The notes under the pieces are model-generated. The model saw only the letters and a program-made list of their open reading frames with translations, searched no databases and was not told where the DNA came from. From Candidatus Schekmanbacteria bacterium (GTDB lineage: Bacteria; CSSED10-310; JACPHN01), in the NCBI GenBank assembly GCA_016188575.1, contig JACPHN010000032.1:62001-126000 (forward strand): 64,000 nt of DNA, written 5' to 3'. How positions within the stretch are numbered: the first letter of the stretch is position 1; each line of letters begins with the position of its first letter. Positions 1,600 through 11,762 of the stretch are shown in pieces. The position numbers were made by a program, and so were the translations under genes.

Positions 1600-1860
1600 A
1601 TGAGCCTCAGGAATGCCATCCGCTTCCTCGGCGAGATCCGCGCCGATCCATCCCTACGCGGCGCTCTGACCGGCGGCGCCCACGAGCCGACCCTGGCCGC
1701 CGTCGCGCAACTGGCCGCGAGCCGGGGATGCGCGTGCAGCGAGGACGATTTGCGCCTGGCCTTTCGCTACGACTGGGTCATGCGCGCCACCTACTTCAAC
1801 CTGCGAACACAACCGGGAGCACCGTCGACTCTCGCACCAGACGATAGGGTCGCCAGATGA
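1600..1860 (+). CDS. Nif11-like leader-domain small protein
   Basis: An 86-aa product beginning MSLRNAIRFLGEIRADPSLR, followed by LAAVAQLAASRGCACSEDDL. This matches the Nif11 domain layout (short helix, DPxLRxxL, xLAxxxGxxFxxxEL). Nif11 domains serve as leader peptides for some RiPPs but also occur in stand-alone small proteins. The conserved-looking part ends at FRYDWVMRATYFN, about residue 67. The last ~20 residues overlap the antisense P450 remnant and may be an artefact of a rearrangement. No lanthipeptide synthetase or radical-SAM enzyme is nearby, only the divergent lasso-type operon. No strong ribosome binding site is visible. A role as a precursor is inference. Confidence 0.5.
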   Translation: MSLRNAIRFLGEIRADPSLRGALTGGAHEPTLAAVAQLAASRGCACSEDDLRLAFRYDWVMRATYFNLRTQPGAPSTLAPDDRVAR

Positions 1861-1978
1861 GCGCCTCCGGCGGCAGCGCCAGGCGGGGCCGGCGACGCAG
1901 GTCCAGCGCGTCCGGGTTGGCAAAGCGCGCCGGGTCGCGGTTGGCGGCATCGAGGATGGCGAACATGGCCCGAGCGAT
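1796..1978 (-). pseudogene. Cytochrome P450 C-terminal remnant lacking the heme-Cys loop
   Basis: The minus-strand frame reads AANRDPARFANPDALDLRR, the classic P450 meander segment before the heme-binding loop. It is followed directly by LIWRPYRLVRESTVLPVVF, which resembles the last strand of bacterial P450s (WRP....RG...LPVRF). The FGxGxHxCxG heme loop and the L helix that should lie between, about 50 residues, are missing. The frame also has an upstream stop at 1979-1981. It sits just downstream of the RiPP operon on the same strand, so it may be a decayed tailoring enzyme of that cluster. Confidence 0.5.
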
Positions 1979-2039: not shown

Positions 2040-4139
2040 TCATCGCCTCGGCAATGTCCTGGCGTAGCGCTCGATGGCGGCAAGTACCGTGGCAGTGGTG
2101 GTGGTGCGCCGCCGGTCGATCGCCGGCACGGTCTCGCCGGCGTGGTTGGGTATGGCCAGCAGGGCCGAGGCCGCCCAGGAGCCGTCGGGCATCTGGCTGC
2201 GCGCCAACGTCTGCGCCAGGCGATGGCTCGGCTGCGGGTGTCGCTCGGGCATCACCAGCAGCGTACGCAGCAGCAGCGCCGCCGCGAAGGGCGCCAGAGG
2301 CAATGGCGCGGCTGCGGTCGCCGCGGAGGGTGGAACATGGGGCAAGCATCGTCCGGCCGCCCAGTCGACAGCACGCGCGGCGCGTGCCTGGTCGCCGGGC
2401 TCCGCGCTCCGGGCAAGCGCCTCCGCGGCCAACGCCGTCGGATAGTAGGAGTCCGGCCACCAGTAGCCCTGCCAGCAGCCCTCGCCATGCTGCGTGCGGC
2501 GCAGGTGCGCGCGCGGCCCGTGGCCGGCGTCGCTGGTCGCGGCGACCTCCAGGCCGGCGGCGGCCGCGGTGACGCAGACATGGGCCTCGTACCACCGCGG
2601 GTTGACATCGCCGCCGTGCAGCGAACGATGCTGTCGCTCTTGCCGGCAGTAGGTGGCGACCCCTCCGCCGGCGGCGACGTGGGTCCGAAGGAACGCTGCG
2701 GCTGCTCCAAATGGGGCGGAAGTGGTCTCCCCGAGTAGTTCCCCGAGGCGCAGCCCCCAGGTCGTGCTGTCGGCGTCGGCCGGCTGCACGAAGTTCCATC
2801 CCCATCCCGCCCGCGGTCGCCGGCAGAGAAGCTGCCACGCGCGCCGGGCGGCATTCAGCGCCGGCTCGGTGCCGATCTCCGCGAGCACTGCGCCGACGTA
2901 GGCCGTGGGCCACTCGTCGGCAATGCCTTCGCGGAAGCCGTCGTAGTCCAGCCACCAGCCGCCCTGGGTGCGCGAGCCGAGCAGGAACGAGCAGGCACGG
3001 GCCGACACCGCCCGGAGCTCGATCGACTCGCCGCCGCCGGGACACCGCAGCGGATTCTGCGGCGGTACGTATGGCTCGGCCGCGGCCGGCCGCCGCCATT
3101 CGTGGACGAAACCGAGATAGCCCTTGGCCGCCAGCGGCCGGCCGTCGCGGTAGCTGACCTTGACGTGGCTGATGCGGCAGTCGAGCACGCCCAGCTCGTC
3201 CGGCTCGCGCAGCAGCGAGGCCGCAATCAGGGCGTCCGGCCAGGGTCGCGAGGCGTTCTGAGGAGTCAGCGTGTGCGGCCACGACAGCAGGTCGGCCCAC
3301 CGCTCGCGCCCGCACAGACCCCGTGCAGCCAGCCAGTCGACGAAGGCGTGCCAGCGCGGATCGAGGCCGCTGGCCTGCGAAAGGAAGCACTCGAAGCTCA
3401 GCTCCGCAGCAAGCTCCGAGGCTGCCGTAAGGCACAGCCGCACCTTGTCACTGTAGCCGAAGAGCATCTCGGCGAGCTCACAGGCTTCGTCGGCCGGACC
3501 CGGCCAGGCAACGTCGGCCAGGAAGCCCGCGGTCGATTCCGGCGGCAGCCCGTCGACGTTGAGGCGAAACCGGCCGGCGCGATCGGAAGCCATCAGGCCG
3601 ACGTGGCTCACGAAGGCCGACTGCGGGCACGCCGCGAGGATCCTCCGCAAGCACGCCATCGCCCCGGCGGGGACAGGCGCTGCCAGCACGGCCAGCACCG
3701 CCCCCACCATCTGCGCGAGGTCGGCTGCCCCCGTTCCCGCAACCGGACGAAGGAAGATCGACAGGGGGGCCGCCCCGGCCGGCGCGGCGGGGCGGTCGAG
3801 CTCCAGCCACAGCTCCGCCAGCGTTCGATGGAGCAGGCTGTTCGGCGTCGACCACTGCTTTGCAAGCCGCTGCAGCCGCGGCCAGTCGGCGCCAGCCGGT
3901 GTCGTGCTTGCGGCGCTTGCTCTGGCAAGATGACCGCGGAGGATTTCCGGCTCATCGTTGCTGGCCGCGATCCGCTGCTGCAGGTCGATCGTCCGTCGGC
4001 CGACGAGCGGCACCTCGATGCCCGCAAAGACAAGCGCCGGCAAGAGCTCTGCGACTGCAAGCAGCTCCGGCGGGATCGGCGTCCACGAGCGTTCCTCCAA
4101 GACGAAGCGCAGGATCGGGGCGAGAGTCGAGCCGTTCAC
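2040..4139 (-). CDS. Large RiPP-cluster protein with terpene-cyclase-like (alpha/alpha) C-terminal barrel
   Basis: The GTG start at 4139 overlaps the kinase stop (GTGA), giving 699 aa and translational coupling. Residues ~1-370 form an unassigned domain with distinctive stretches (FGYSDKVRLCLTAASELAAEL, LDCRISHVKVSYRDG, AAKGYLGFVHEW). Residues ~400-690 carry helix-repeat features of the squalene-hopene cyclase/prenyltransferase alpha/alpha barrel: GGWWLDYDGFREG, GWGWNFVQPADAD, GYWWPDSYYPTALAAEAL and a QW-like SQMPDGSWAAS near the end. The DxDD motif of class II terpene cyclases was not found. The operon context suggests a tailoring or processing step on the lasso-type peptide; the reaction is unknown. 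A stand-alone cyclase-like enzyme is the alternative. Confidence 0.6.
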   Translation of the reverse strand: MNGSTLAPILRFVLEERSWTPIPPELLAVAELLPALVFAGIEVPLVGRRTIDLQQRIAASNDEPEILRGHLARASAASTTPAGADWPRLQRLAKQWSTPNSLLHRTLAELWLELDRPAAPAGAAPLSIFLRPVAGTGAADLAQMVGAVLAVLAAPVPAGAMACLRRILAACPQSAFVSHVGLMASDRAGRFRLNVDGLPPESTAGFLADVAWPGPADEACELAEMLFGYSDKVRLCLTAASELAAELSFECFLSQASGLDPRWHAFVDWLAARGLCGRERWADLLSWPHTLTPQNASRPWPDALIAASLLREPDELGVLDCRISHVKVSYRDGRPLAAKGYLGFVHEWRRPAAAEPYVPPQNPLRCPGGGESIELRAVSARACSFLLGSRTQGGWWLDYDGFREGIADEWPTAYVGAVLAEIGTEPALNAARRAWQLLCRRPRAGWGWNFVQPADADSTTWGLRLGELLGETTSAPFGAAAAFLRTHVAAGGGVATYCRQERQHRSLHGGDVNPRWYEAHVCVTAAAAGLEVAATSDAGHGPRAHLRRTQHGEGCWQGYWWPDSYYPTALAAEALARSAEPGDQARAARAVDWAAGRCLPHVPPSAATAAAPLPLAPFAAALLLRTLLVMPERHPQPSHRLAQTLARSQMPDGSWAASALLAIPNHAGETVPAIDRRRTTTTATVLAAIERYARTLPRR

Positions 4140-5134
4140 GGCTGCCGGCCTCCCCTGACAGCACCGCGACAAAGGACCGCATCGACGTGACGTACGAGCA
4201 GCTCGGTCAGGGCTGGCCGCTGCTGCCAGATCGGCGTGCCGCGCAGCGCGTGGATCGGCAGGGTGCGCACGATGTGCGCACACAGCTCCACCTGCTGCGG
4301 CGTGAGCAGGTGCGGCATATCGGGCGGATACTGGGCCGCACAGAGCATGGCCAGGGCGGCGGGACCGCCGACGGGGGTGACGGCCGCCGGCTCTGCGTCG
4401 TCGGCCGGGCAAAGCACATACATGGCTGCAAGCGGCACGGCACGGGCGCAGATCCTGTCGCTGCCGGCCGCGGAAACGTCCCAGTAGTGCTTGTTCGTCC
4501 ACGGCACCACGCGCAAGTGGTCCGCCGGCAGCGACAGCTCCGCCAGCGCGTCACCGGCGAGGCGTAGCGCCGGATAGCCCGGCGGCACGACGACATCGTC
4601 GCCGTGCCGCTCGAGCACCACCAGATCATCGGCAACGAGCGCAAAGCCGCGTTGGATCAGTGATGCGGCAAGCGTCGACTTGCCGGCGCCCGCGAGCCCG
4701 AGCAGCGCAATGGCAGCGCCGTCGCGCTCGACGACGGCGCCGTGCATGCACAGCACCTGCCGCAGGCGCAAGCAGTAGCCCAGACCGATCCCCTGCAAGA
4801 CCACGAGCGCCGCCGTCAGCTTGTCCGGACAGACCGAGCTCATGCGGATAGCGGTCCCAGCGGAATCGTAGAGAAGCACCAGATGCCGGCCCCACGAGAG
4901 CGCTCGATCGCCGCGCCGGTTCTTGCTGGCCTGAGGCTGTGTCGCATGCGCGGGCCGCCGGATGACGCGCCAGGCGGGTGAGCTCAGGTCCGGGACCTCG
5001 CAAGGCCGCCACCACACACGGACCGCGGCGTCGTTGGAGACGTCGTGCTCGACGGGGATTCCCGCAAGAGCGACGTTGCTGCGCAGCGACAGGCCGTAGA
5101 CGCGGTGGAAATGGTCGGTCACAAGGACGTGCAT
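4136..5134 (-). CDS. HPr kinase-like lasso peptide kinase
   Basis: 332 aa from ATG at 5134, overlapping the cyclase end by 16 bases. It contains an HPrK-type nucleotide-binding core: His131 in MHGAVVERDG, a P-loop GLAGAGKST at residues 146-154 and the DD pair in ALVADDLVVL at 169-170. This is the layout of HPrK/P-related kinases found in lasso-peptide clusters, such as those that phosphorylate the C-terminal Ser of paeninodin-type peptides. The neighbouring precursor ends in Ser, which fits this substrate. The N-terminal ~120 residues are a variable family-specific domain. An upstream in-frame Met at 5314 lies inside the cyclase gene and is unlikely to be the start. Confidence 0.8.
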   Translation of the reverse strand: MHVLVTDHFHRVYGLSLRSNVALAGIPVEHDVSNDAAVRVWWRPCEVPDLSSPAWRVIRRPAHATQPQASKNRRGDRALSWGRHLVLLYDSAGTAIRMSSVCPDKLTAALVVLQGIGLGYCLRLRQVLCMHGAVVERDGAAIALLGLAGAGKSTLAASLIQRGFALVADDLVVLERHGDDVVVPPGYPALRLAGDALAELSLPADHLRVVPWTNKHYWDVSAAGSDRICARAVPLAAMYVLCPADDAEPAAVTPVGGPAALAMLCAAQYPPDMPHLLTPQQVELCAHIVRTLPIHALRGTPIWQQRPALTELLVRHVDAVLCRGAVRGGRQP

Positions 5135-7065
5135 CGTCCGCTGCGCTCCAGCCAATCGACGAAGCACGCGACGTTGGTGCCTCTTCCGACGATGGTGAAG
5201 GTCGTTGCCGACCAGTGCTCGCGCCGGGCCGGACGGACCGCCGCCAGGGCGTCGAGAAGCCGCCGGCGGTCGACGTAACGCCAGCAGGCGGAAGCGGCCC
5301 TGTCGTGCGCCCATTGCTCCACCTGGCCCCGCGTCGCCGCCAGGCGGGACTGGATGGCGGGGTCGAAGGCCCCGCCCTTGTCGCGGCGCTGCCGCACTGC
5401 CTCCGGAAGCACGCCGCGCAGCGCCCGCCGAAAGAGGCTGCGGGACCAGCCGTGCCGCTGGAGCTGCTCCGGCGGTACGCGGATCATGAGCTCGATGACG
5501 CGGCGATCAAGCAAGGGAAAGCGTACGTCCTGCGAGTACGTCGCGTCGAACATGCGCACGCATTGCGAAATGGCATGCTCCAGCCGCCCCGGCTTCATCA
5601 ACTGGAGCATCTGCCTGCGCGGCGATCGTGTTGTTATGAAGTCGGCCAGGTCCGGATCGAGCCGGTCGCGTGAGGCGCCGGCTCTGGCGGCGAGCCACGG
5701 GTGAGTGCAGGAGGCACGGCGGCGATTGCCGTGACGAAGCCGGCGGTACAACCGCCTGGCCGCCGGCGGCAGCAGCGGCTGAATCGCATGCTCGCGCAGG
5801 ATCGAGAGCCAGGACCGGTGCTCCTCGCGCCGCAACGCGGCGAGCTCGGCGGCGGCGGCGAACCAACGGCCGGTCGCGAACAGCTCGCGAATCGCCGTCG
5901 AGCCGCGCCAAGAGGCGAAGAAATCGCCGCCAAAACCGCTCAAGACGACCTCGACACCCGCTTCACGCCCGGCCTCGCCAAGAGCCAGGTCGATGTACGG
6001 GACGAAGCTGAAGGGCATGTCGGAGAGCGTCTCGCAGTACTGCCCGATGGCCTCCAGGGGCGCCACATTGAGCGGCGCCCGAACCCAGCGGACGTCGACG
6101 TTCCCTTGCTGGGCGGCGACCGCTCGCATGTACTCGCGCTCATCGACCTCGACGCCGCTGTAGTCATCCGCCAGGATCGAGCTGAGAGCTACCAGCCGCC
6201 GGCCCTGCTCGCGCAGCTTGGTGGCCGCGACGGACGCGATGGCAGAGGAGTCCAGGCCGCCGCTGAGGTGAACGGCTGTCGGGCGGCCGGCGTCCACCCG
6301 GCAGCACACCGCTTGCACGATCCGCTCGCGCAGATCCGCTTCATAGTCGGCATCGTTGCGATACGACAGCGGCGCGAGCGCTTCCGGCGTCCAGTAGCGG
6401 CTTGGCGTGGTGCCGCCGCGGCGAACGGTCATCGAGTGGCCGCTCGGAAGCACCCGGACATCCTCGTAGATCGTGGTCCCGGGTGGACCGTAGCCGCCCA
6501 CCTCGAGGTAGTCGGCGATCGCGACGGCGCGCAGGCGGCAAGGCACGAAGGGAAGCGAGAACAGAGCACCGAGGTTGCCCGCGCAGGCGAAGATTGCGGG
6601 CGAGTCGAAGTAGTAGAGGGCGCGGACGCCAAGGCAGTCGCGTGCAGCGAAGAGGAGCTCGCGCCGTCGGTCCCAGATCGCGAAGGCGAAGTCGCCGAGC
6701 AGCCGTTGTGGACACTGATCTTTCCAACGGGCGTAGGCGCGCAGCAGGAGATCGGCATCGCTGCAAGTGGCCGCCGCGGACGGGCACAGTGCGAGCGCAG
6801 CGCAGAGCTCGGCTCGATTGTCGAGCCGCACGCTAGCCGCGAGCAGGCAGGCATCGCCGTCGACGAGCACCGGCGCGGCCGCGACGGCGGCGCCGCTCGC
6901 GGTTTCGTCGCCGGCGCCATACAACGCCACGGGCGTTCCGTCGACAGCGTGCACCGCGACGCCTGCGGGGCTCGTGCAGGCGCCCAGCAGCGCCGGCCAG
7001 GGGGCGCCGTTGCTGGCGCCGCCGATCACGGCGCCGCGGTAGAAGGCTGCCGCCCACACCGTCAT
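5119..7065 (-). CDS. Lasso cyclase, asparagine synthetase homologue
   Basis: 648 aa. The N-terminal half is a degenerate glutamine amidotransferase domain. The protein starts MTVWAAAFYRG and so lacks the catalytic Cys2 of true asparagine synthetases, as lasso cyclases do. The C-terminal synthetase domain carries the PP-loop SGGLDSS at residues 268-274, used to adenylate the side-chain carboxylate. It would activate the ring Asp of the core peptide and close a macrolactam with the core N-terminus. The start codon overlaps the RRE gene stop (ATGA). In this operon a lasso cyclase is far more likely than AsnB. Confidence 0.85.
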   Translation of the reverse strand: MTVWAAAFYRGAVIGGASNGAPWPALLGACTSPAGVAVHAVDGTPVALYGAGDETASGAAVAAAPVLVDGDACLLAASVRLDNRAELCAALALCPSAAATCSDADLLLRAYARWKDQCPQRLLGDFAFAIWDRRRELLFAARDCLGVRALYYFDSPAIFACAGNLGALFSLPFVPCRLRAVAIADYLEVGGYGPPGTTIYEDVRVLPSGHSMTVRRGGTTPSRYWTPEALAPLSYRNDADYEADLRERIVQAVCCRVDAGRPTAVHLSGGLDSSAIASVAATKLREQGRRLVALSSILADDYSGVEVDEREYMRAVAAQQGNVDVRWVRAPLNVAPLEAIGQYCETLSDMPFSFVPYIDLALGEAGREAGVEVVLSGFGGDFFASWRGSTAIRELFATGRWFAAAAELAALRREEHRSWLSILREHAIQPLLPPAARRLYRRLRHGNRRRASCTHPWLAARAGASRDRLDPDLADFITTRSPRRQMLQLMKPGRLEHAISQCVRMFDATYSQDVRFPLLDRRVIELMIRVPPEQLQRHGWSRSLFRRALRGVLPEAVRQRRDKGGAFDPAIQSRLAATRGQVEQWAHDRAASACWRYVDRRRLLDALAAVRPARREHWSATTFTIVGRGTNVACFVDWLERSGRCTSL

Positions 7066-7361
7066 TCGACAGGCGGATCCTGCGGCCGCTCGAGGTCGAT
7101 CAGCTCAGCCTGGTAGAGGCGCGTGAGGAACGCCAGCACGTCTTCTCGACAGCGTCCCCACTCGACTTCGTAGCGCTCGACGACGGCGTCGACCACGGCA
7201 TCGACCGACATGGGACGGTCGATCAGGCGCCAGATGACTCCTCCGAGGCCATTGGCGACATAGTAGGCACCCGCCTCGACGTCCATCATGACCAGCTCGC
7301 CGCCGAGCTCCGTCGACAGCATGCGGCGGCATTGCGACACCACGCTGTTGGCCGTCAGCAC
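7062..7361 (-). CDS. PqqD-like RiPP recognition element (lasso B1)
   Basis: 99 aa from a GTG at 7361 with a good GGGAGG ribosome binding site about 6 bases upstream. A longer ATG-started version from 7460 would overlap the precursor. The protein has the PqqD/RRE winged-helix pattern: ELVMMDVEAGAYYVANGLGGVIWRLID, then a helical half with RCREDVLAFLTRLYQAELI. Such proteins bind the precursor leader peptide and present it to the maturation enzymes. In canonical lasso clusters it partners a B2 transglutaminase-like protease, which is not seen here. Confidence 0.85.
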   Translation of the reverse strand: MLTANSVVSQCRRMLSTELGGELVMMDVEAGAYYVANGLGGVIWRLIDRPMSVDAVVDAVVERYEVEWGRCREDVLAFLTRLYQAELIDLERPQDPPVE

Positions 7362-7440: not shown

Positions 7441-7620
7441 TTAGCTGTAGCCACCACCATCGGTTGAGGAATTGGTACCGCTCATCGTCAGCTCGCTGAC
7501 CTTGCCAGCAGAAGTCAGCAGCGGCGGCTCGTAGGGCAACCGGGCCGCGCTGGGTGCGGCTTCGGCAGTGGTACTCTTCGTTCGACGCGGCGGCTCGCTC
7601 GGCGCTTGTTTCACGTTCAT
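7441..7620 (-). CDS. Lasso-type precursor peptide
   Basis: 59 aa, ATG at 7620 immediately after GGAGG; an alternative GTG lies two codons in. The leader holds the lasso consensus YxxPxLxxxGxxxxxT as YEPPLLTSAGKVSELT, with Thr45 at the -2 position. The predicted core is SGTNSSTDGGGYS, 13 residues: Ser1 as the amine donor, Asp8 as the ring acceptor giving an 8-residue macrolactam, and a very short GGGYS tail ending in Ser. The terminal Ser matches the HPrK-like kinase in the operon. Cleavage before Gly48 is an alternative that would leave Asp at ring position 7. Confidence 0.75.
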   Translation of the reverse strand: MNVKQAPSEPPRRTKSTTAEAAPSAARLPYEPPLLTSAGKVSELTMSGTNSSTDGGGYS

Positions 7621-7696: not shown

Positions 7697-8411
7697 TCGC
7701 CCCTTCGCGGCGCATCCCGTGCCAGCGCACCAACCGACACCACGGCATTTGTCGTGCGGCGCGCGCCGGCCGCTGCATCGGCCGCGGCTATCCGTCCTCT
7801 CGCCGCACATCCGCCCCGTCCTCCTCACCGCTCCGCGCCAGCCGCACGCGCCAGCTCGCGCCCATCCGCTGCAGCTCGAAGGCGATCGTCGTCGATCGCC
7901 TCGCGCACCTCGCGGCTGTTGCTCCCGAGGCGCACGCGCACGTTGGGATGCAGCGTCCCGAGAGGACGCGCAGCTCGGCACGCGCGACATGTGCAATTCA
8001 GGTTGGACGCGGGAGCTGTCGTCCAGCTCGATTGGCGATACAATGCAGCGCCGAGGGACGCGATGAGGCTCAGTCGTCGTTGGTGGCGCGACTAATGGGA
8101 AACTCAGGTTGCGAGGTCGTCCGTTTCATCCGGCGCGGGTCGGCGATGCCGGTGGAAAACTAATGTGGAGCGATCGTCGTCGCCAAAGACCCTGAGGTGT
8201 TTACCCGCTCCGTGCCCGACGGATCGCTGACGGGCGCGGCGGTCGCGGGCTTGCTGTGGCTTCCGCACAAGCAGGCCTTCCAGGTCTTGCCGATCCTCGA
8301 TCGACTGCCTCGATCGACGCACCGCGACCTCTTTTCAGCGTAGCAAAGCCGACTCTCGCGAAAGGGACGTTGGCACCACAGAATCACCGAGATGCTCTTG
8401 GAGAGGATGGG
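7697..8411. other. Intergenic region between divergent genes, no gene recognised
   Basis: About 700 bases between the lasso promoter and the FG-GAP protein start. Open frames exist in several phases, but none has a ribosome binding site, a recognisable motif or convincing codon use. A GGAGAGG ribosome binding site for the downstream gene lies near 8400. Confidence 0.5.
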
Positions 8412-11400
8412 ATGAGCCAGCAGCTCCGGGTTACTTTTGGCCGTGCTGATTCCTGGGCCACCTCCGTGTTGTCTGTTGTGACTCTGTGGTTGCTCTGCTG
8501 CTGGCTGCCGGTGGCGGCGGTAGCCGCCGAAGTTACGTTCGAGGCTCTCGTCATCGACTCCACCACCGCCGGCGACTGCAAGATGGTCGGCGACATCGAC
8601 CGCGACGGTTTCGCCGACGTCGTCATCGGCGGGACGGCCGGCACCGAAGACCTGCGGTGGTATCGGTACCCCACCGGGGAGAAGCTGGCGATCGGGGCCG
8701 CCAATGTCGAGCTCACGACCGATGGCGAGCTCGGCGACGTGGATGCCGATGGAGATCTCGACGTCATCATCCCGGACGGAGCGTCGGGCGACAACCTGTG
8801 CTGGTTCGCGAACCCGCTCCCCAGTGGTGACCTGTTCGGCGGCGCGACCTGGACGCGTCACCCCATTGGCGCAGTCGGGGGATGGGGCAAGGACGTCGAA
8901 CCCGCCGACTTCGATGGCGATGGTCGTCTGGATGTCGCAACGCGGTCGAACGACCAGGCTTTCGTCTTCTTTCAGGACGGCGCCGCGACCTGGACCCGGC
9001 TCGTTTTTCAGGACGTCGCGCTGGGTTACGAGGGCATGGGACGCGGCGATATTGACCGCGACGGAGATCCGGACCTGCTGCTGCGCGGCACCTGGCTCGA
9101 GAATCCCGGCGGCGATGCGGCCCGCTCCGCCGCCGCATGGTCCGAACACGACATTGGGGCGGCCGACACGGATTTCAAGGTTCTCGCCACGGATCTCGAT
9201 GGCGACGGCAGGATTGACGTGCTCTACTCGAGCTCCGAGAATACGGCCGATGTCGTCTGGTGGTCCCATGGGGGTGATCCACGCGGCGCCTGGACGGGCA
9301 GGATTATCGAGAGCGCTCTGAATCGTTGCCACACGCTTCAGGCCGCGGACCTCGATCGCGATGGTGATCGCGACGTGGTTCTCGGCCAGATGCACACCGC
9401 AGCGGCGCAGGAGATCGCCGCGTACCTCAATGACGATGGCCTGGGCACCACCTGGACCCGCACCGTCTTCGGCAGCGGCGGTATCCACAACGGGGTGCTC
9501 GCCGATCTCGGCAACGACGGTGACCACGACCTGTTCGGTGCCAACTGGACGGGCAATCCTCCGGTGCGTCTCTGGCTCAATACGACCGATGCCCGCCTCG
9601 GGTTAGACGCCTGGACGTACATCGCGGTTTCCAGCAGCCACGTTCAGACGTTCGGCCTGGCGTTTGGCGATATCGACAGAGATCGCGATCGCGACATCGT
9701 CTCTGGGCCGTACTGGTATGCCAACCCCGGCGGCGACATGACCGGTACCTGGGAGCAGCGCTCCTTCCCGGCCGGACTCCACGCGCTTGCGACTGGCGAT
9801 GTCGACGGCGACGAGCTCGCTGACGTCATCGCCCAGCGCGACTCCGGGGCTCTCGAGCTCTGGTGGCTCGAGGCGGCAGACGCGGCGGTGTCCGCGTGGA
9901 CGTCCGTTTCCGTCGGCACCGTCGAGAGCGCGAGCCACGCGCTCGGCGCTCAGGGGTACCGCACCGCCGACCTGGCCGGAGACGGGCGCGCCGAAGTGCT
10001 CGTCAGCAGCGGCGGCGGGATTTACATGTTCAGCGCGCCGCTGGCTCCTGAGGCGGGAGACTGGCCGCGCACGCGAGTGACCACGAATGCCTCGGATGAA
10101 GGCCTTGCCATCGGGGACATCGACCGCGACGGTAGACCTGACATCGCCGCCACCACCGGCGACGCCAAAGGCGTGGAATGGTATCGCAACCCGGGTGCGG
10201 CCGGCGGTGCATGGGTAGCTCACACCGTCGGATCCTTTCCCGAGGCGGTCTACCCGGACCGCACCGAGATCGCCGACCTCGACGGCGACGGCCGGCTGGA
10301 CATCGTCGTCACCGAGGAGAACGGCGGCGCGGACAGCGCGGAAACCTACTGGTGGACCGCACCCCCCGATCCCACCTCGACGCCCTGGACCCGATCGCTC
10401 CTGGTCTCGCAAGGTTCCACCAACAGCCTCGACGTGGCTGACCTCGACCGCGACGGGGACGCCGACGTCATCACGGCAGAGCACCGCGGGGCATTGCGCG
10501 TCACCATTCACGAAAACGCGGGCCAGGCCACCTCCTGGATTGCGCACGAGATCGACGCCGGCAAGGAGAGCCATCTCGGCGCCAGGCTCGACGACCTCGA
10601 TCGCGACGGCGACCTGGACGTGGTCAGTATCGCCTGGGACGCGCCGAGCATGCTGCATTTGTGGCGCAACGACGGTGTCGAAGCGCCGGTGGCCACGCCC
10701 CCGAGCATCGTCCAGGCGCACGCCGTCGGCACCAATACGCGGGTGACGCTGACGTTCGACCGAGCACTCGACCGCACGTCGGCGGAAACCGCTACGAACT
10801 ATGCGATCAGCTCGCCCGCGCAAATCTTCGCGGCGCGGCTTGGCGCGACCAGCGACCTGGTCGAGCTGACCACCACGGCAATGGAGGAAGGGCGCCAGTA
10901 CGAGCTGACCGTCAACGACGTGCGCAGCAGCACCGGCGCCGCGATCGCGCCGGACTCGCGGGCGACCGTCACCTACCGCGCCATCGCAGTGCCCGACGGT
11001 CTGGTCGCATACTGGCCGTTCGAGCAGGGCGCCGGCGAAATGGCAGCGGATCTCTCCGGCCGAGGGCACGACGGCCTGCTGCGCGGAGCGGTCTGGAATG
11101 TGAGCGGCAGGTATGGAACCGCCTTGTCCCTGGACGGCGTCGGCGCGCACGTCGACGCGGGCTACTGGGGAGTCCAGGCGAGCGCGCTCACAGTCGCGGC
11201 CTGGTTTCGCGCGGAGAGCTTCGACAATGCCGACGCACGGCTGGTCTCCAAAGCGGCGGGGCCCGCCGAGCAGGAGCACGACTGGATGTTGAGCACGACC
11301 ACCAGTGGCGGCGGCATGCGCCTGCGCGGGAGATTGCGCGCCGCAGGCTCGACGCTGACAGTCATCGCGGCCTCAGGCGACCTGCAAGCCGGACGCTGGA

Positions 11401-11762
11401 TTCATGCCGCGGTCGTGTACGATGGCAGCGAGGTGCGACTCTACAAGGACGGTGAGCTGGTGGGCAGCGCTCCGAAGTCCGGAGCGCTCGCCGACAGCCC
11501 CGGCACGAAGGTGCTCGTGGGCAGCAACCCCGATGGATATGCCGCGTTCGACGGGCTCATCGACGATGTTCGCATCTACGATCGAGCGCTCGGCGCGGAC
11601 GAAATCATGGCGGTGCTTCAGGGGGGGTCGATCATCGTCTCGCAGGTTGCTCTCGGCATTGCGGTGTCGATCATCGCCCTGCTGGGGGTGGCCGCCGTGG
11701 CGCGGCGGCGCGGCCGATCGCCCGACCGGCCGGACGCGGCGCTGGCAGCTTCCTCACCGTGA
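8412..11762 (+). CDS. FG-GAP/VCBS repeat surface protein with LamG domain and C-terminal anchor
   Basis: 1116 aa from ATG at 8412, chosen for the GGAGAGG upstream and because it gives an N-terminal signal peptide (hydrophobic run ending AAVAA). Residues ~40-760 contain about 14 FG-GAP/VCBS units of the form D-x-D-x-D-G-x-x-D-(V/I)-(V/I), Ca2+-binding blades of a beta-propeller. An SbsA-like Ig segment ([19 protein letters not shown]) follows. Then comes a LamG/concanavalin-like domain beginning [26 protein letters not shown]-terminal membrane helix with a basic tail ([15 protein letters not shown]) suggests surface anchoring. Its partner or ligand is unknown. Confidence 0.85.

Follow-up and report, generated by a model that had tools for sequence, protein, structure and literature searches.

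A predicted very short lasso peptide precursor in an operon with a putative prenyltransferase-terpene cyclase fusion

Gene content of the locus

The window, a 64,000-nucleotide stretch of a Candidatus Schekmanbacteria contig, carries on its minus strand a compact operon with the gene order A (7620-7441), B1 (7361-7062), C (7065-5119), K (5134-4136) and PC (4139-2040). B1 and C share ATGA at 7062-7065, C and K overlap by 16 nt, and the GTG start of PC at 4139 overlaps the kinase stop within GTGA. The operon has a GC fraction of 0.704, against 0.655 in the 20-60 kb part of the window. Upstream and divergent lies a large ORF (8256-11762, plus strand), unrelated by sequence, whose product has FG-GAP repeats as well as a laminin-G-like domain.

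Translation of the minus-strand ORF at 7441-7620 (ATG at 7620, stop at 7441-7443) gives a 59-residue precursor A, in which a leader, MNVKQAPSEPPRRTKSTTAEAAPSAARLPYEPPLLTSAGKVSELTM (7483-7620), would be followed by a core, SGTNSSTDGGGYS (7444-7482). A GGAGG motif stands 2 nt upstream of ATG 7620 and 8 nt upstream of GTG 7614; either start is possible, and the whole leader motif is kept with both. The leader includes YEPPLLTSAGKVSELTM, with Y(-17), P(-14), L(-12), G(-8) and T(-2) counted back from the core start at Ser1, a spacing that is canonical for lasso leaders. Residues 30-48 match the NCBIfam model NF033521 (lasso_leader_L3) with 21.4 bits (cut-off 19); of six places in the 9.2-Mb genome that match this model at E<=10, precursor A is the sole one above the cut-off, which argues that the match is more than chance. 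Core position 8 is an Asp, within the range (positions 7-9) in which lasso cores carry Asp or Glu. The borders of a 13-residue core, proposed in an earlier sequence-only reading, are supported, and the Ser1-Asp8 ring of eight residues with a five-residue tail, proposed in the same reading, remains the best prediction. We consider it about evenly balanced whether 7441-7620 gives rise, in the full sense of the explanation developed below, to a lasso-family RiPP of this small size with the cleavage, ring and threading predicted here.

The genes that follow belong to the expected families. B1 (7062-7361, minus strand) encodes a PqqD/RRE protein (PF05402, 64.5 bits; NF033536, lasso_PqqD_Bac, 76.7 bits, slightly below the cut-off of 80); its likely start is GTG 7361, after GGGAGG, and the open frame reaches 7460. 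C (5119-7065, minus strand) encodes a lasso-type macrolactam synthetase of the Asn-synthetase family (PF00733, 118.7 bits), which carries the PP-loop SGGLDSS and lacks Cys2 (MTVW...). With NF033535, the model for lasso cyclases, C scores 354 bits (cut-off 525), more than any other match in the genome. Both lasso partners are therefore found in the cluster, though the NCBIfam exception-level cut-offs are unreached. C had no second copy at E<=1e-60 in the eight genomes of the source phylum, and a scan of genome contigs returned one weak locus, in Nonlabens, at 25% identity. A plasmid search with C gave 315 records, all of which fell short of 80% query coverage, and the plasmid matches, among those listed, resemble general Asn-synthetase-like genes. 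K (4136-5134, minus strand) encodes an HprK-like kinase (PF07475, 40.6 bits; TIGR04352, 50.7 bits, cut-off 200) with an intact P-loop, GLAGAGKST, and an intact DD motif.

Also expected within a lasso cluster is the leader protease B2 (PF13471), which is absent from the operon and from the window. The whole genome holds a single match to PF13471, on another contig (C250; L016 9705-10205, plus strand), where a 166-residue protein with a full Transglut_core3 match stands alone among housekeeping-like ORFs. The tetranucleotide correlation of C250 with the window is 0.926, other contigs of the same genome giving 0.905-0.942, and its composition fits the same genome as the window. By tblastn detection in regions some of which are cut by contig ends, B2 is missing nearby in 11 of the 31 lasso regions compared, including the window and a second locus of this genome (L065). 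A shared trans-acting B2 is therefore plausible, and the C250 protease may act in trans for all lasso-like loci of this genome.

A thirteen-residue core and its candidate sites

Comparison loci were gathered by seeking the kinase in 386 genomes (matches at E<=1e-8 in 21) and by running a profile of eight precursors through the phylum to which G253 belongs, where 61 of 329 genomes matched at E<=0.1, many of the weak matches being due to chance. A first relaxed motif scan likewise gave many chance matches, and by visual inspection only those lying within or next to lasso-like loci were retained. From the fetched regions 31 cores were placed by eye, in a set biased to kinase-linked loci because it was partly found by kinase; loci without a placed core were omitted, together with a Ser-ending core whose ring was not placed (L064) and a candidate core far from C (L061), and two loci with two precursors each (L104 and L116) count as one entry each. 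The core of the window, at 13 residues, is the shortest of the 31, the next being 14 residues in three cases, and its first residue is Ser, as in 4 of the 31 cores, compared with Gly in 18. The unusual shortness and the uncommon Ser at position 1 to which the sequence-only reading had drawn attention are thus both borne out. The nearest ring, SGAASTTD (SGTNSSTD here), belongs to a locus of another phylum (L063 of G253), which shares Ser1, B1, C and K and the lack of B2 in the region, but differs in a nine-residue tail, FMGKRAVVM, in a C-terminal residue other than Ser and in having no PC gene.

The genome of the window itself contains further lasso-like loci. One, on contig C95 (L065 7950-8091), has C, K and B1 without a local B2, and its W-type precursor ends in ...AITE followed by VSFGGSGTDSSIYS, with a five-residue tail whose last residues are Tyr-Ser. 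On contig C160 (L061 4179-4266, minus strand), a third candidate short core, GVAGSVTDGVDGSF, is separated by about 2.3 kb from the C/B1/K set upstream of it, and is a weaker candidate since it is not adjacent.

Whether so short a tail can thread was examined with an idealised backbone and a flat 25-atom ring, without side chains, in 1,000,000 samples, a plausibility check that is silent on stability. In this model a tail of three residues gave zero clash-free threaded conformers, whereas tails of four and five gave 302 and 295; of the 295 conformers with the five-residue tail, 150 had two residues beneath the ring. The ring radius matters, 63 conformers being found at 4.5 A and 550 at the larger 5.2 A. 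The earlier suspicion that GGG below the ring may make threading impossible is not supported by the model, where Gly9-11 would form the loop, and threading of GGGYS appears geometrically possible.

Two readings deny the locus a threaded product. The five-residue tail may be too short to hold, leaving an unthreaded branched cyclic macrolactam or a linear phosphopeptide; its core is indeed the shortest compared, and the available part of PMC13381572 describes linear polyphosphorylated peptides whose synthesis involves an HprK-like kinase. We nevertheless think this rather unlikely, given a lasso-type C coupled to the operon, an idealised backbone that threads with tails of at least four residues, and the 14-residue cores found elsewhere. 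That the cluster is decaying and yields no mature peptide, the local B2 being missing and the lone genome copy lying near housekeeping-like ORFs, seems highly improbable: every reading frame of the operon is open and the frames overlap, the protease on C250 shows a complete Transglut_core3 match on a contig with genome-like tetranucleotide usage, 11 of 31 compared regions likewise have no nearby B2, and pseudomycoidin is reported, in the part of its description available to us, to be made without leader and leader peptidase.

An HprK-like kinase lies near 29 of the 31 compared cores (a set partly found by kinase). Among these 29, C-terminal Ser occurs in 10, the window core included, and Ser or Thr at position 3 in 12 and at position 5 in nine; four (L054, L057, L059 and L109) have none of these features. 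The core of the window carries all three candidate sites, Thr3, Ser5 and Ser13. In the accessible text of PMC10368454, BsfK phosphorylates the ring residue Ser3. The claim that the terminal Ser matches the kinase is therefore not sustained, since only 10 of 29 cores end in Ser, positions 3 and 5 are equally frequent carriers and BsfK uses Ser3: phosphorylation of the terminal Ser is one of several options, and Ser13 alone is not decisive.

In a kinase tree, from which L066, L067, L068 and L110 (no recognisable P-loop) and L104 (partial) were left out, the kinase of the window sits on a long branch (2.03) outside every supported group, and the phylogeny was dropped as a guide to its phosphorylation site. 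The label notSer in this tree was given also to rows without a placed core (for example L058, L062, L125 and L129) and to L061. The BsfK clade itself (support 98/93, seven rows) has Ser or Thr at position 3 in all five of its placed cores, in line with the phosphorylation of Ser3 described in the part of PMC10368454 available, and kinases of L105 and L112 go with cores bearing Ser or Thr at position 5; kinase clade may thus predict the modified position.

The fusion enzyme and its possible substrates

PC, of 699 residues, goes unmentioned in the sequence-only reading and makes the locus more unusual than that reading had it. Its C-terminal domain (2040-3014, minus strand; residues 376-699) matches MstE (6sbg) at E 2.1e-41 and the prenylcyclase 6ij1 at E 7e-34, and its DADST aligns with DADTT of MstE, so the acid motif, whose Asp pair we take to be the general acid, is kept. 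These features identify an MstE-like class II terpene (prenyl) cyclase. PC homologs were absent from the other searched regions (L053-L070 and L101-L129, most of them lasso loci); matches to half of PC only were found in 2 of the 386 genomes, beyond the window's own genome, and in 4 of the 329.

The N-terminal domain (3015-4139, minus strand; residues 1-375) has no Pfam or NCBIfam family. Averaged propensities, a weak method, predict five strand pairs with helices between them (ten strands). An ABBA barrel should show just such an arrangement, and the pattern suggests an ABBA prenyltransferase. A profile of six homologs found no match in the PDB at E<=10 and nothing meaningful in Pfam and NCBIfam, and AlphaFold on the single sequence of PC gave a pLDDT of 36. 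Homologs of this domain, 19-31% identical, occur in other RiPP loci: one stands beside LanM (G075); the Pseudanabaena homolog forms a fusion with a 2OG-Fe(II) oxygenase in a locus that also has LanM and a Nif11 precursor; that of Acaryochloris adjoins a Nif11 precursor and a radical-SAM C-methyltransferase; in Azospirillum the neighbours are a TfuA-like ORF and NHLP-like peptides (named by eye); another occurs in Nostoc; and one in a second phylum (L146, G515), where the contig ends, lies beside PqqD, HprK-like and Nif11 genes. Together with the strand pattern, these settings point to a probable ABBA-type peptide prenyltransferase. No homologs of this domain were found in viral contigs.

More broadly, an unnamed family of about 360-residue domains (L132, L136, L137, L138, L139, L146 and L147) is seen in loci with LanM, radical SAM, NHLP/TfuA and HprK/PqqD genes, some members standing alone and others joined to a terpene cyclase or a 2OG oxygenase, and the members scanned have no Pfam or NCBIfam model. 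A different fusion, of a polyprenyl-synthase-like domain with a squalene-hopene-cyclase-like (SHC-like) domain, occurs in G061 (L131 427-2508, plus strand), is followed by an ABC transporter gene and resembles the ChrPC layout. Two sub-threshold matches to the cyanobactin prenyltransferase model TIGR04445 in the 386 genomes were left unused, and a short ORF at 1796-1966 (minus strand) with a cytochrome-P450-like look was dropped for lack of Pfam support.

The operon coupling, by start/stop overlap with K, is the reason for thinking that PC acts on the lasso core. Tyr12 is the sole aromatic residue of the core, which contains no Trp, and it may carry a polycyclic isoprenoid. Convergent with PC, however, lies a small Nif11-like ORF (1600-1860, plus strand, within the ORF 1558-1860; PF07862, 24.8 bits, cut-off 23.8), possibly a second precursor or a leader-like partner. 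If PC modified this peptide instead, in the fashion of MppC, two RiPP pathways would run side by side, a view encouraged by the above-cut-off Pfam match, by the same convergent pairing of a Nif11 gene with a stand-alone prenyltransferase gene, adjoining PqqD and HprK-like genes, in L146, and by the Nif11- or NHLP-type precursors that accompany homologs of the domain elsewhere. We judge it distinctly unlikely, since the Nif11-like ORF runs in the direction opposite to the operon, no obvious core is seen in its C-terminal tail, which by eye is not conserved against L146, and none of the operon genes was recognised as LanM or radical SAM. Somewhat unlikely, by comparison, is a plain 13-residue lasso phosphorylated at Ser13, as in paeninodin, or at a ring hydroxyl, as in Bsf, with PC serving another substrate: the core lasso enzymes and the kinase motifs are intact, kinases are common near such precursors and the other searched regions have no PC, but PC is start/stop-coupled to K, and in the unrelated genome of L146 a prenyltransferase-domain homolog adjoins B1- and K-like genes.

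Proposed pathway and relation to known systems

On the favoured reading, the RRE protein B1 would bind the YxxPxL leader of precursor A, and K would phosphorylate the still linear precursor on a Ser or Thr, be it Ser13, Thr3 or Ser5. The leader would be cut off after Met(-1) by a trans-acting B2 encoded elsewhere, and C would activate Asp8 and join it to Ser1 in a macrolactam through which Tyr12-Ser13 are drawn, the Gly9-11 loop permitting the tight turn. The co-translated PC would prenylate the core, most likely at Tyr12, and fold the prenyl chain into rings in the manner of NctPC, so that a bulky terpenoid could act as a plug. We hold this pathway, from A, B1, C, K and PC to a prenylated, phosphorylated short lasso, at an even probability; its basis is ORFs, overlaps, motif matches and cyclase homology, and the action of PC on the core is a proposal.

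It is supported by the leader match, the families of B1, C and K and the start/stop overlaps that tie these three and PC together; by the near-identical ring of L063, the 14-residue cores elsewhere and the modelled threading of tails of at least four residues; and by the MstE-like cyclase with its acid motif, the LanM/Nif11 setting of the prenyltransferase homologs, the precedent of NctPC and the L146 locus. It is weakened by the missing operon B2, the genome's only copy being on another contig, by an N-terminal domain without a PDB profile match and with a pLDDT 36 model, by the absence of PC homologs from the other regions searched, with the Nif11-like ORF as alternative substrate, and by the fact that, in the available parts of the sources on them, NctPC and MppC act on Trp, absent from this core, and MppC refuses Tyr. 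More tentatively still, the product could be a meroterpenoid lasso, with the shortest core compared, a polycyclic isoprenoid on Tyr12 as steric plug for a five-residue tail, and a phosphate besides; this we regard as a minor possibility.

The combination of a lasso operon with a predicted prenyltransferase-terpene cyclase is unseen in the other lasso clusters examined, and, among the matches listed in the open-access literature, no paper joins a lasso with PC or with a squalene-hopene cyclase, which does not prove novelty. A fused prenyltransferase-terpene cyclase in a lasso operon would join two chemistries, and it raises a testable question: can a lasso be locked by a bulky group that a tailoring enzyme attaches, in place of a long tail? 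The core, with Thr3, Ser5 and Ser13, also offers a defined minimal substrate for where lasso kinases act.

Phosphorylated lasso peptides and lasso peptides bearing prenylated Trp are known, as are cyclised terpene groups on other RiPPs (PMC13352647 and PMC13290415, available in part). The locus shares with the paeninodin family (PadeK, ThcoK and pseudomycoidin) the B1/C/HprK-like kinase set and a Ser-ending core, but it differs in its five-residue tail, the added PC gene and the lack of a local B2. The pairing of C-terminal Ser with an HprK-like kinase that marks this family is found here and is unspecific (10 of 29 kinase-linked cores), and paeninodin leaders read WxxP in the accessible text of PMC13381572, against YEPP (YxxP) here; nor does the window K group with support with the kinase of the paeninodin-like L053. 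With the Bsf lasso of Bradymonas (BsfA/BsfK; PMC10368454, available in part), the locus shares the eight-residue ring, Asp8, a hydroxyl residue at ring position 3, the YxxPxL leader and an HprK-like kinase, whereas Bsf has Ile at -2 (Thr here) and a 21-residue core (13 here), and the kinase of the window, on its long branch, does not join the BsfK clade with support.

The closest parallels for PC come from outside lasso biosynthesis. MppC, an ABBA prenyltransferase of a LanM/Nif11 cluster, geranylates a lanthipeptide Trp and did not accept Tyr, according to the part of PMC12715784 available; the likeness, one of setting, lies in the N-domain homolog that occurs with LanM and a Nif11 precursor (L137). 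NctPC, as described in the accessible text of PMC13290415, fuses an ABBA prenyltransferase to an MstE-like cyclase, transfers a C20 (geranylgeranyl) chain onto a peptide Trp and cyclises it, and ChrPC, in the same source, has a trans-IDS-like domain in place of the ABBA prenyltransferase. By description, PC has the build of both, in which a single RiPP-associated protein begins with a prenyltransferase-like domain and continues with an MstE-like cyclase; it differs from them in that it is coupled to lasso genes, its predicted core would offer Tyr in place of Trp, and the ABBA fold of its N-terminal domain is only predicted.
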